From Flavobacteriales bacterium (GTDB lineage: Bacteria; Bacteroidota; Bacteroidia; Flavobacteriales; Flavobacteriaceae): a DNA stretch of 36,539 nt. A model generated the notes under the pieces. That model made no database searches. It was not told where the DNA came from and saw only the letters and a list, made by a program, of their open reading frames with translations. The DNA lies in contig JAMOVT010000098.1 in the NCBI GenBank assembly GCA_027061855.1, positions 1-36,539 of the forward strand. The letters are read 5' to 3'. Position numbers and translations under genes: made by a program. Each line of letters begins with the position of its first letter. The first letter of the stretch is position 1. Of the stretch, positions 26,550 through 33,485 are shown one piece after another.

Positions 26550-28904
26550 TTAAAATTTGATATTTATCCCGGCCAAAAAATTCCTGCCCGCCTGAGGAAA
26601 ATAGTAAGCTGTACTTCCCCACATATAGCCGTTAGAAACATATTGAGTGTCGAATAAATTGTTTATTTTGAGTTGCAATTGAACATTATCAAATAAATTT
26701 TTCCCTTTAATTTGGTAAGTAATCAATGCATTTTCGACAAAATAGGCATCCAATTTTGATTCGGGCGTGTTTTTATTATCCATATATTGCTCTCCTACAT
26801 ATTTTGAATATAATTTTATATTTAATTCTTTCACCGGTTTCCATTGAATGATTGCCGCTCCTACTATTTCAGGGGAATAAGTAAGATTGGTATCTCCATA
26901 AGAAACCGGAAGGCCGTTTTCTATCTCAAAATAATCTTTGTTTTTATTTTTACTCAGACTGATGTTTCCTGAGAATTGCCATTTCTCATTCAAGAGATAC
27001 CCTCCTTGAATTTCCATTCCTATACGGTAACTTTCTCCTACGTTTTTTCTTATGGGATTTCCTACATTATCGATTTGACCGGTTAAAACCAATTGGTCTT
27101 TGTAAAACATTCCGAAAGCGGTAGCTTCAAAATTTGTCTTTTCGGTTCTGTATTTCCAACCGGCTTCTATATCGTTTAATGTCTCGGATTTGGGTAAGGT
27201 TACCGGATTGTTTACATAATCGTCACGATTTGGCTCTCTATGTGTCTGAGCCAAAGAAATATAGGCTTGTTGATTGAAATTTATTTCATACATCAAACCG
27301 ATTTTCGGATTGACAAAAAACAAATCGTCTTTTATGTAAAAAGGCGAATTATAATCGAGGGTTCCGTCAATTGTATAGTTAATGTTTCTAAACTGTATAT
27401 CCGTATAAAGCTTTAAATCATCGGTAATATTATAAATACTTTTTGCAAAACCGCTTACTGTTTTTTTCTCTCCGGTATTTCTATAATATTCCTCATCTAT
27501 TTCACTGTCGGAAGCATACCTTGCCCAGATTATCCGTCCGAAATGTCTTCCGTCGTATTCATTTGCAGCAACTCCCAGAATCACTCGCATATCATCCGAA
27601 GTATAAGTAGTGGAAGCAATCAATCCGTAAAAATCGTTATCCAACCATTTTCTTCGGATAAGATCTGTTTTATCAATAACCACTCCATTAATTTGAATGG
27701 GAGTCAAGCCATAGTCGGCAAAATCCCTGTCTTGTTTGTATTGTTCATAATATCCCCTGCCGTAAGTATAGTGTGCTGTGAGGTTTAATTTTAGATTTTC
27801 CGCTACACGGTATTCATAATGCAATTGGCTATGATCTTGCTTGTAATGGTCAATTTCGTTATCATAAAAACCGATGATATTCCAATTAGCATCATAAATC
27901 GCCCCGGCATAATTAAAAGTGCGATTTGTTTCCAAGGTTTGTTTGTCCACTCCATACCAAGCTTGATAGGTTTCTTCTTCCCCCCCGAAAAAAATAGCTT
28001 TTAAAGTGTTTTTTTCATCTTTATAGGCTCCCGACAAAAAATAAGAAGACATATCCGAGCGGGCTCGATCTATATAGCCGTCAGATTTAATTTTGGAATA
28101 TCTTCCGGTGAATTCAAAATGATTATTTAGTAATCCGGTACTTCCTTTTATACTATATTTTTGCGTATTAAAAGATCCTGCCGATGCTTGTATTTGAGCA
28201 AACGGCTCTTTATTTATTTGATCTGTGGTTAAACTTATTGCCGCTCCAAAAGCACCGGTCCCGAATGTTGAAGTTCCCACTCCCCGCTGAATTTGGATAC
28301 TTTCGGTCGAGGCGGCAAAATCGGGAATATCCACCCAATACACTCCATGCGATTCCGGATCGTTTAATGGAACTCCATTCAGTGTCACATTGATTTGTTG
28401 CGGACTGATTCCTCTGATTCTAATTCCGGTATACCCCACACCTGCTCCCGCATCGGAAGTAGTGACTACACTAGGGGTGAAATCCAATAAATAAGGTATG
28501 TCTTGCCCTAAATTTTGTTCTTCAATATCCTTTTTTTTAATATCGGTATAAGTCACGGGCATATCTTTACTCGCTTTGACCGAATAGATCACTACTTCGT
28601 CCAGAGGAACGGTATCCGGATAAAGATAAATTTCGATATATGTATGTTTAGTTAAGTGAATTTTAGAACGATACACTTTGTAACCCGGCTCTGAAATCAG
28701 CAAAGTATAATTTCCTTTTTTTAATTCAAATTCGAAATAGGCATTTTCGTCGGTCTGCGTTTGAAGATTTTCCTCAATGATTTTAACCGTTATGCCTGAT
28801 AATAATTTTCCTTGATCGTCTTTAACCGTTCCGGCCAATTTGAAAGTTTGTGCATTGATTCCCATATATGTAAGAATCAATAGTGATACGAATAATTTTT
28901 TCAT
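26550..28904 (-). CDS. TonB-dependent receptor under TPP riboswitch control (probable thiamine-compound importer)
   Basis: A 784-residue outer-membrane receptor. Signal peptide 1-18; a carboxypeptidase-regulatory-like domain at about 20-105 (LAGTVKDDQGKLLSGITVKI); a plug at about 115-230 with GIRIRGISPQQINVTLNGVPL and GVGTSTFGTGAFGAAISLTT; then a 22-strand-type barrel ending in the aromatic signature AGINIKF. The leader carries a complete THI-box riboswitch, so the substrate is probably thiamine, its phosphate or a precursor. Rodionov and colleagues (2002) predicted such THI-regulated receptors (Omr1) in this phylum. No PnuT or thiamine pyrophosphokinase is adjacent: the gene is closed by a hairpin. 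Substrate is inferred from regulation, not from residues. Confidence 0.9.
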   Translation of the reverse strand: MKKLFVSLLILTYMGINAQTFKLAGTVKDDQGKLLSGITVKIIEENLQTQTDENAYFEFELKKGNYTLLISEPGYKVYRSKIHLTKHTYIEIYLYPDTVPLDEVVIYSVKASKDMPVTYTDIKKKDIEEQNLGQDIPYLLDFTPSVVTTSDAGAGVGYTGIRIRGISPQQINVTLNGVPLNDPESHGVYWVDIPDFAASTESIQIQRGVGTSTFGTGAFGAAISLTTDQINKEPFAQIQASAGSFNTQKYSIKGSTGLLNNHFEFTGRYSKIKSDGYIDRARSDMSSYFLSGAYKDEKNTLKAIFFGGEEETYQAWYGVDKQTLETNRTFNYAGAIYDANWNIIGFYDNEIDHYKQDHSQLHYEYRVAENLKLNLTAHYTYGRGYYEQYKQDRDFADYGLTPIQINGVVIDKTDLIRRKWLDNDFYGLIASTTYTSDDMRVILGVAANEYDGRHFGRIIWARYASDSEIDEEYYRNTGEKKTVSGFAKSIYNITDDLKLYTDIQFRNINYTIDGTLDYNSPFYIKDDLFFVNPKIGLMYEINFNQQAYISLAQTHREPNRDDYVNNPVTLPKSETLNDIEAGWKYRTEKTNFEATAFGMFYKDQLVLTGQIDNVGNPIRKNVGESYRIGMEIQGGYLLNEKWQFSGNISLSKNKNKDYFEIENGLPVSYGDTNLTYSPEIVGAAIIQWKPVKELNIKLYSKYVGEQYMDNKNTPESKLDAYFVENALITYQIKGKNLFDNVQLQLKINNLFDTQYVSNGYMWGSTAYYFPQAGRNFLAGINIKF

Positions 28905-28950
28905 TGTTTTTAGTTTTTTATGTGATTAAATACTACATAAAAACAATGGG
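28902..28950 (-). promoter_or_regulatory. Start-codon sequestering hairpin (riboswitch expression platform)
   Basis: Positions 28902-28912, which include the receptor ATG, are an exact 11-base inverted copy of 28938-28948. On the mRNA, CATTGTTTTTA would pair with TAAAAACAATG and bury the start. The same upstream arm has a second partner in the aptamer 5' strand and a third at 28915-28923, so the pairings exclude each other. Confidence 0.65.
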
Positions 28951-28960
28951 TAGGTTGAGA

Positions 28961-29045
28961 TAAACGTCCCTAAACAGCATTACCTGTTCCAGGTTCTACG
29001 GGTATGATCTCAGCTCGTAATTTTTTAGAGCACCCCTGTTTTTAT
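28961..29045 (-). ncRNA. TPP (THI-box) riboswitch aptamer
   Basis: On the minus strand the conserved core appears in order: GGGGTGC (29030-29036), the pyrimidine-sensing CTGAGA (29008-29013) followed by TCATACCC, GAACCTG (28990-28996), GGTAATGC (28977-28984) and AGGGA (28967-28971). AAAC and GTTT at the ends can close P1. It binds thiamine diphosphate and normally switches the downstream gene off. The next gene is the TonB-dependent receptor. Confidence 0.96.
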
Positions 29046-29051
29046 TTAGGG

Positions 29052-29080
29052 CAAAGGTAAAGAGTTTTTTAAAATAACAA
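29052..29080 (-). promoter_or_regulatory. Promoter of the riboswitch-receptor transcript
   Basis: TTG (29078-29080) and TACCTTTG (29052-29059) on the minus strand are 18 bases apart, a strong match to the Bacteroidota consensus. RNA should start near 29045, almost exactly at the first bases of the riboswitch P1 strand. Confidence 0.85.
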
Positions 29081-31511: not shown

Positions 31512-33485
31512 ATGAAAAAAATAGTTTTATTGTTTTTTTTACAAATAATAATTGTCAATGCACAGGATTTTGAATCGAAGGAAGCTTTGGATTCTATCAC
31601 AATTTCAGGATACGGAAAAAATATCTCTATCGCAGAAATTCCCAAGACCATAACTATACTCACCGCCCAAGACATAAAGCAAAAAAACATAGAAAATTTA
31701 GATGATTTATTAGAAGAAATTGCCGGTATAGATATCCGTACAAGAGGAGACAAAGGTGTGCAATCGGATATAAGCATTCGCGGAGGAAATTTTGATCAGG
31801 TATTAATACTGCTAAATGGTATTCCTTTTAATAATCCGCAAACCGGGCATCATACCTTGGATCTTCCGGTAGATGTCAGTATGATCGAAAAAATAGAAAT
31901 ATTAGAAGGTGCTTCCGGGCAATCTTTTGGAGTAAATGCATATAGTGGAGCCATCAATATAATCACCAAAAATCCGCAGACAAATCAAGCGGAAACAGGA
32001 ATAAAAATCGGGCAATACGGTTATTTAAAAACCGATTGGAACATAAGACATACCAATGATAAAATTTCTGTTTTCAACGGATTAACTTATCAACGTTCCA
32101 ATGGTTATTTAACCAAGGATTCTATTAACAACACCGATTTTTTCAGCATAAAAGATTTCTTAAACATCAAAATAGAAACCAAAAACCATCCGGTAAATAT
32201 TCAGCTGGGCTATCATCAAAAAGATTTTGGTGCAAATAGTTTTTATACTTCAAAATATCCCTGGCAATATGAAAAAACAAAAGGCTTTTCAGGAAGTATT
32301 TCTAAAAAAATCGGCAAGAAAATCCTGTGGAAACCTTATCTCCTTTACCGGTTACATTTTGACGAATTCCAACTTTTCCGGGAAAGTGTTTATAAATATC
32401 GCGACGGTTATTATATCTCGAATCAAGACACTGCTCAATATGCCCCCGGTTTTTATTACAGAGGACCAAATTATCATAAAACTCAAAATATAGCGGGAGG
32501 AATAAAAACCGGTTTTCAATCGAAATACGGTAAAACCAATCTACATTTGATGTTAAAAAACGAAGAGATATGGAGCAATGTATTAGGAAAACCTCTGGAT
32601 ATGCCTATTGAAAAAAAGGATGGAAGAATATATACAAAATACGACCAAAGATTTTATACTTCTATTATTGTAAATCAAGTAAAAAAATGGGAAAATTACC
32701 AAGTAGGGGCAGGAATAAATTTTTTATATAATAGTCAATACAAACTCTATTCGTCCGGTGGTATATTTATCAACCATACCGGCAATAAATGGACGAAATA
32801 CCTCAGTATAAACTCAGCTGTGCGTTTACCTACATTCACGGATTTGTATTATGAAGGACCTTCAAACACCGGAAATCCTGATCTCAAACCCGAACAATCT
32901 GTCACATATGAAACCGGAATTAAATATAAAAACCCGGGATTTTCAAGTAATTTGTCTCTTTTTTATCGCCAAGGAATCAATACGATTGATTGGATCAAAA
33001 CAGACCCGCAGGAAAAATGGCATACCGAAAACTTAACCAACCTGAATACGTACGGAATGGAATTTTCAGCCGGAAAAAAATTCAAACCGGAATATTTTGT
33101 CAAAAAAATAGCTTTTTCTTATGCCTATTTGGATATGAATAAAGAAGAAAACGAAAATTTAATCTCAAAATACGCCTTAGATTATCTCAAACACAAATTT
33201 ACGGGAGAAATAATTCATAAATTTTTCTATGGCATGGAAACTTCTTGGCAATTAATTTATAAGCAACGTGAAGGACAATACTTGGACTATATCAATCAAG
33301 AATATCAATTATTTGACTACAAACCCTATTTTTTAACTCATCTCAAAATGAGCAAAGTTTATAATCATACAAGCTTTGAATTAAAAATAGAAAACCTGTT
33401 TGATATAGAATACAGGGACTTATCTTATATCAAAATGCCCGGACGCTGGATCATCTTTGGAATTACCTATCATTTTGATAAATAA
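31512..33485 (+). CDS. TonB-dependent outer-membrane receptor (BtuB-like, substrate unknown)
   Basis: A 657-residue receptor, compact like the BtuB/vitamin and siderophore group. Signal peptide of about 17 residues (VNA before Q); a TonB-box-like start (DSITISGYGK); a plug with NLDDLLEEIAGIDIRTRG, DISIRGGNFDQVLILLNGIPF and ILEGASGQSFGVNAYSGAINIITKNP; then a barrel with TDLYYEGPSNTGNPDLKPEQSVTYE and FELKIENLFDIEYRDLSYIKMPGRW. It lacks the N-terminal regulatory-like domain of the thiamine receptor. The leader is too short for a cobalamin riboswitch. The terminal residues YHFDK place the aromatic third from the end. Confidence 0.9.
   Translation: MKKIVLLFFLQIIIVNAQDFESKEALDSITISGYGKNISIAEIPKTITILTAQDIKQKNIENLDDLLEEIAGIDIRTRGDKGVQSDISIRGGNFDQVLILLNGIPFNNPQTGHHTLDLPVDVSMIEKIEILEGASGQSFGVNAYSGAINIITKNPQTNQAETGIKIGQYGYLKTDWNIRHTNDKISVFNGLTYQRSNGYLTKDSINNTDFFSIKDFLNIKIETKNHPVNIQLGYHQKDFGANSFYTSKYPWQYEKTKGFSGSISKKIGKKILWKPYLLYRLHFDEFQLFRESVYKYRDGYYISNQDTAQYAPGFYYRGPNYHKTQNIAGGIKTGFQSKYGKTNLHLMLKNEEIWSNVLGKPLDMPIEKKDGRIYTKYDQRFYTSIIVNQVKKWENYQVGAGINFLYNSQYKLYSSGGIFINHTGNKWTKYLSINSAVRLPTFTDLYYEGPSNTGNPDLKPEQSVTYETGIKYKNPGFSSNLSLFYRQGINTIDWIKTDPQEKWHTENLTNLNTYGMEFSAGKKFKPEYFVKKIAFSYAYLDMNKEENENLISKYALDYLKHKFTGEIIHKFFYGMETSWQLIYKQREGQYLDYINQEYQLFDYKPYFLTHLKMSKVYNHTSFELKIENLFDIEYRDLSYIKMPGRWIIFGITYHFDK

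Follow-up and report, generated by a model that had tools for sequence, protein, structure and literature searches.

The locus studied here raises the question of how a TPP riboswitch controls the gene that follows it. The locus lies in a stretch of 36,539 nucleotides (referred to as the window), in which a 192-nt gap on the minus strand, between an rmuC-like gene and the gene of a TonB-dependent outer-membrane receptor, is the site of a TPP leader (Table 1). A preliminary description, made from the same DNA, had pointed to a short segment between aptamer and start codon that could pair with the start codon, with the 5′ end of the transcript or with a third partner close by. Here, we describe these pairings, their folding and their conservation in orthologous leaders, and we regard it as very probable that the leader is a translational OFF switch controlling a probable thiamine uptake receptor.

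The TPP leader and its receptor gene

The aptamer matches the RF00059 covariance model over its full length and has P1 to P5 together with the conserved CUGAGA, ACCC, GAACCUG and AGGGA core. P1 is predicted at 29041-29038/28965-28962 and P2 at 29036-29034/29002-29000; P3, P4 and P5 are predicted as well. With 50.6 bits the aptamer scores 3.7 bits under the Rfam gathering cut-off of 54.3 bits, which is why a scan of the window against Rfam at the default cut-off came out empty. In the same family a TPP match was found in 184 of 199 genomes but was above the cut-off in only 59, so the Rfam cut-off is not diagnostic in this family. The aptamer is the sole TPP match in the 2.04-Mb genome and, judged from its sequence, presumably binds TPP. 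Upstream of it lies TACCTTTG, which matches the motif TAnnTTTG that we take to be the −7 promoter element of Bacteroidota, and a possible −33 element is TTG at 29080-29078. As a putative −7 box, TACCTTTG at 29059-29052 would place the RNA start near 29045, consistent with the start that had been predicted before.

The gene product has the plug and barrel domains of a TonB-dependent receptor and its gene is preceded by the TPP aptamer, the combination that characterizes OMthi-like receptors. It is probably a thiamine uptake receptor, with the riboswitch pointing to the substrate. Receptor orthologs with the same kind of TPP leader were found across Flavobacteriaceae. No match to ThiC was obtained in the 2.04-Mb genome (assembly about 95% complete), and the genome has one PnuC/PnuT-family gene; both are consistent with a thiamine scavenger.

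Two other genes in the window should be mentioned. A second TonB-dependent receptor is encoded nearby on the opposite strand (31512-33485, plus strand); it is related to the BtuB/heme receptor families, and no Rfam riboswitch was found upstream of it at the cut-off. The infC (IF3) frame (24389-24293, minus strand) has no ATG, GTG or TTG before the conserved N-terminus, and, read from an AUA in frame at 24389-24387, it has an N-terminus that is basic and IF3-like, which makes a rare start codon probable for infC. Rare start codons of infC are seen in other bacteria, where IF3 autoregulates.

Table 1 Features of the leader and its surroundings in the window.
Feature	Position	Strand	Description
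rmuC-like gene	30449-29097	minus	
Putative promoter −7 element	29052-29059	minus	TACCTTTG, TAnnTTTG type, read from sequence
TPP riboswitch aptamer	28949-29047	minus	RF00059, 50.6 bits, E 4.7e-9, model 1-105 of 105
Anti-sequestor 5′ strand	29034-29045	minus	partners 28950-28948 and 28945-28937; overlaps the 5′ strands of P1 and P2
Switch segment	28935-28950	minus	CCCAUUGUUUUUAUGU; common to anti-sequestor and start-codon sequestor
Pairing 3 partner (inner alternative hairpin)	28915-28923	minus	pairs with 28943-28935
Start-codon sequestor 3′ arm	28902-28914	minus	28912-28902 with 28938-28948, 11 bp; 28914-28913, two more pairs
Receptor start codon AUG	28902-28904	minus	ORF 28904-26550, N-terminus MKKLFVSLLILTYMGINAQ, signal-peptide-like
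TonB-dependent outer-membrane receptor, 784 aa	26550-28904	minus	Pfam PF00593, PF07715, PF13715 (plug and barrel)

Pairings of the switch segment and folding of the leader

The exact 11-bp match across the ATG that had been reported at 28902-28912 is present. In this pairing 1, 28948-28938 (CAUUGUUUUUA) forms 11 Watson-Crick pairs with 28912-28902 (UAAAAACAAUG), including the whole AUG, and folding adds two pairs (28936-28935 with 28914-28913) beyond a one-base bulge. In pairing 2, nine pairs between 29045-29037 (AUAAAAACA) and 28945-28937 continue, across a two-base bulge (28947-28946), with GGG 29036-29034 on CCC 28950-28948; as a duplex this has −12.4 kcal/mol. The nine pairs and the GGG behind a two-base bulge were thus described correctly, with the refinement that of the G run given as 29033-29036 three of the four Gs are used. 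The bases at the 5′ end had been said to form or border P1, which they do, but the consequence goes further: formation of pairing 2 breaks P2 as well as P1. In pairing 3, 28943-28935 and 28923-28915 form a hairpin of 9 bp without mismatch; the only bases for which it competes with pairing 1 are 28943-28938.

Folding of the leader with and without a constrained aptamer gave, in the model, the predicted OFF and ON forms. In the unconstrained ensemble of the window leader pairing 2 had a mean pair probability of 0.64 and the bases of the AUG were unpaired with a probability of 0.23-0.30; with P1-P5 enforced, pairing 1 reached 0.85 and the AUG was unpaired with 0.01. In this model, which has neither tertiary contacts nor ligand, the ensemble with the aptamer enforced lies 12 kcal/mol above the free one, so TPP binding and the tertiary structure of the aptamer must pay the balance. 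When folding of the growing transcript was followed, the anti-sequestor (pairing 2) appeared once the segment was made, before the AUG, and in the window leader it remained near 0.9, whereas in L005, L014 and L011 it later competes with the sequestor (pairing 1). Many full-length Flavobacterium leaders close the AUG at equilibrium even without ligand, and there kinetics or the ribosome must contribute.

According to the proposed mechanism, under scarcity of TPP the 5′ end of the transcript (29045-29034) would pair with 28950-28937 upon transcription of that segment; P1 and P2 of the aptamer would be broken, the AUG region would be left largely free and the receptor would be made. With TPP bound, the 5′ strand would be held by P1 and P2, and the switch segment, once released, would pair with 28914-28902, placing the AUG inside an 11-13 bp hairpin in which the start of the ribosome would be blocked. 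Since Bacteroidota have no Shine-Dalgarno sites, the hidden element would be the AUG and the A-rich bases upstream of it. The simple model put forward before had the same logic, the 5′ end holding the segment and leaving the ATG free without TPP, and the ATG closed with TPP; folding agrees with both forms, and the response to TPP is what we infer.

Covariation in orthologous leaders

With the receptor as query, 80 orthologous loci were retrieved. In 77 relatives and in the window the 5′ strand, the aptamer, the leader and the start codon could all be assigned. An anti-aptamer arm was defined as a segment 3′ of the aptamer that is complementary to the leader's own 5′ strand with a duplex energy of −7 kcal/mol or better. 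Such an arm is present in 73 of the 77 relatives and, with the window, in 74 of 78 parsed leaders; L042, one of the four leaders lacking it, is probably mis-parsed, and L057, L064 and L065 look different. Two genomes of the same genus gave no TPP match, and one of them has only a C-terminal fragment of the receptor.

Covariation of the stems in orthologs had been named as a check of the model, and the helices at the 5′ end and at the AUG both show compensatory changes. In helix 2 (pairing 2) these are lineage-specific pairs such as AAACAGGGG/CCCUUGUUU (L002-L005), UCGAAGGGG/CCCUUCG (L011), AUUCGGG/CCCGAA (L018), ACAAUGGGG/CCCAUUG (L051), CAAUAGGGG/CCUCUAUUG (L060) and CAAAGGGG/CCCCUUU (Flavobacterium). 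Among 25 distinct leaders 18 cells were changed on both sides and the covariation score was 0.314, whereas shuffles gave 6.7 cells on average and a score of 0.167; none of the 500 shuffles reached 18 cells or 0.314, and all slid registers scored lower. The register behind the cell counts was picked from the duplex optimum, so more weight is given to the comparison of own with swapped strands between species. With kinship ignored, p was 5e-5 when 20 distinct 5′ strands were compared and 2e-5 for 20 distinct segments; removal of the GGGG/CCC core still left p at 0.005.

For helix 1 (pairing 1), own strands had a mean of −9.3 kcal/mol versus −5.3 kcal/mol for swapped ones (permutation p 2e-5, kinship ignored). 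In Flavobacterium the U-tract of CCCCUUUU extends as UUUUAUUCGUAA and pairs with UUACGGAUGAAAA, by which the AUG is buried. In L011, CUUCGCA pairs with UGCGAAG, whose UG is part of the AUG, and in L005 UUGUUUUUUACA pairs with UGUAAAAAACAA directly upstream of the AUG, a stem that L002 and L004 retain via a G-U pair. A sequestor of at least 6 bp is present in 71 of the 74 leaders. Among the 74, the AUG is covered in 64 and only positions −16 to −1 in 10. The bases of the arm are themselves part of the sequestor in 57 of the 74. In 17 of the 74 the overlap of arm and AUG hairpin is under three bases, or the hairpin is shorter than 6 bp, so strict mutual exclusion is not universal. Altogether, both helices are beyond chance and covary across orthologs, and both states are thermodynamically plausible.

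Several leaders have features of their own. In L029, L033, L053, L056, L069, L075 and L079 a CCCC arm lies about one base from the AUG hairpin and hardly overlaps it, so that exclusion there would have to be steric or brought about by other pairs. Most of the Flavobacterium leaders (L014-L081) have an extra variable hairpin between the aptamer and the GAATAA switch segment, often GACAAA...GTGCAC...TTTGTC, that is absent in the window. The top-scoring TPP leaders of the family (L082-L111) were left out of the ortholog analysis; their 5′ strand is another one, and in those that were parsed no long ORF begins within 300 bases. In nine of them (L084, L085, L087, L091, L093, L098, L100, L103 and L107) the 5′ strand is AAACTTTAGGGG, and some have a downstream complement, CCTAAAGTTTA or TTCTAAAGTTTA. 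From these complements, this second class of TPP leaders may have an anti-aptamer arm as well.

Alternative explanations and known systems

Chance complementarity in an A/U-rich leader had been named as a real alternative, and the pairings in the window are indeed mostly A-U, with a low GC content around the start. However, when the 62-nt leader was shuffled 5000 times with its dinucleotide composition preserved, pairing 1 (or a longer one) arose in only 4 shuffles, pairing 2 with the same energy in 32 and the two together in none; the duplex energy of pairing 2 was reached in 12 of 2000 shuffles. As a control within the same genome, uninterrupted helices covering the ATG were looked for at 178 predicted starts (266 kb in 20 stretches). 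Besides the window gene, a single start had an 11-pair helix on its ATG, and this case was rejected as an intrinsic terminator with a spurious ATG within its stem, which leaves no genuine match among the 177 other starts. Together with the compensatory changes in relatives, G-C-containing versions included, these controls rule out chance pairing, an explanation that we find hardly credible.

A different alternative retains the pairings but gives the switch three states: hairpin 3 would then be a regulatory form in its own right, for instance a kinetic intermediate during which the AUG stays open. Pairing 3 is perfect, has the shortest loop and is able to form before the AUG is made, but enforcing both the aptamer and pairing 3 leaves CAUUG/CAAUG paired and the AUG closed to about 94%. 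Moreover, the nearest relatives (L002, L004, L005) have a single 12-bp stem here, just upstream of the AUG, in which pairing 3 is fused with pairing 1, and during ligand-free transcription the segment favours the 5′ end. The 9-bp hairpin described before is present, but not as a mutually exclusive third partner, since it can coexist with partial pairing of the AUG. Constrained folding does not support a separate state; in the model pairing 3 is an inner variant of the closed state, and a third regulatory state appears very unlikely to us. There are, on the other hand, precedents for transcription attenuation or Rho-dependent termination, to which the AUG hairpin would be secondary: the thiamine biosynthesis operon of B. 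thetaiotaomicron responds at the transcript level (PMC5613172), and E. coli thiC joins a translational block with Rho termination (PMC5234074). However, the transport operons of B. thetaiotaomicron had no significant transcript change on thiamine (PMC5613172). No intrinsic terminator-like site was found in the window leader between aptamer and AUG, which leaves an intrinsic terminator platform with no candidate there; the hairpins there are rich in A/U, and the bases after them are A rather than U. Furthermore, the conserved 3′ arm lies on or directly before the AUG, a position that termination does not need. Control by termination is thus improbable, and we favour translational control by hiding of the start codon.

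The mRNAs of F. johnsoniae have no Shine-Dalgarno sites and structure at the AUG reduces their translation; in Flavobacterium, translation is tuned by near-AUG structure and by A at −3 and −6 (PMC6847099). The proposed switch is similar to that of E. coli thiC, where the TPP aptamer comes with an anti-P1 stem, formed in the absence of ligand, whose pairing is incompatible with P1 and with the sequestering stem (PMC5234074). In the leaders studied here, likewise, a covariation-backed stem of the ligand-free form excludes P1 and the sequestor, and a covariation-backed sequestor buries the translation start region. The OFF logic, the sequestration of the start region and the cotranscriptional order are also alike (PMC5234074), though here they are predicted. 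In E. coli, however, sequestration involves the ribosome-binding site (Shine-Dalgarno) and the AUG, and the gene concerned is a biosynthesis gene (PMC5234074), whereas the window leader has no Shine-Dalgarno site, pairs the AUG itself and the A-rich bases upstream of it, uses a 5′ strand that spans P1 and P2, and precedes the gene of an outer-membrane receptor. Exclusive anti-sequestor and sequestor stems, with P1 stabilized by the ligand, are also part of the general description of translational riboswitches in the sections of PMC2258182 available to us; there they are described with hairpins at the ribosome-binding site, unlike the hiding of the AUG here.

In the same phylum, Bacteroides TPP riboswitches precede OMthi, pnuT and thiSEGCHF, and thus also an outer-membrane thiamine receptor gene; their mechanism was called uncertain (PMC5613172). 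A preprint (10.1101/867226), cited in PMC7366714, deals by its title with transcriptional or translational control by Bacteroides TPP riboswitches, and it may already have proposed start-codon hiding for Bacteroides. In those parts of the open-licence PubMed Central literature that were consulted, start-codon hiding in a phylum lacking Shine-Dalgarno sites was not found. When the whole class was searched with the receptor, 149 of 247 genomes had a match, and 26 of 29 inspected loci have a recognisable TPP aptamer upstream of the receptor. Many of the 29 have a C-rich arm facing the G run of the aptamer, as in L158 (UUUUGGGG with CCCCAAG); in L150 the CCCC continues into CCGG, which pairs with CCGGG right before the AUG. 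The other families of Bacteroidia differ from the leaders studied here in that their C-rich arms are related but their stems are other ones. Inspection of these 29 loci is no more than suggestive of such an arm beyond the family.

The textbook route of translational riboswitches, hiding of the Shine-Dalgarno sequence, is unavailable in Bacteroidota, because these bacteria have no such sites. It is tempting to speculate that one coevolving segment, which pairs either with the 5′ strand of P1/P2 or with the start codon, is a general start-codon-hiding platform of this phylum, present in Flavobacteriaceae and altered in other Bacteroidia; we consider the case for this generalization evenly balanced. 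The covarying segment with its two partners is a concrete and mutable model for the TPP riboswitches of Bacteroidota, and it suggests a way to recognise the expression platforms of other riboswitches in these bacteria.
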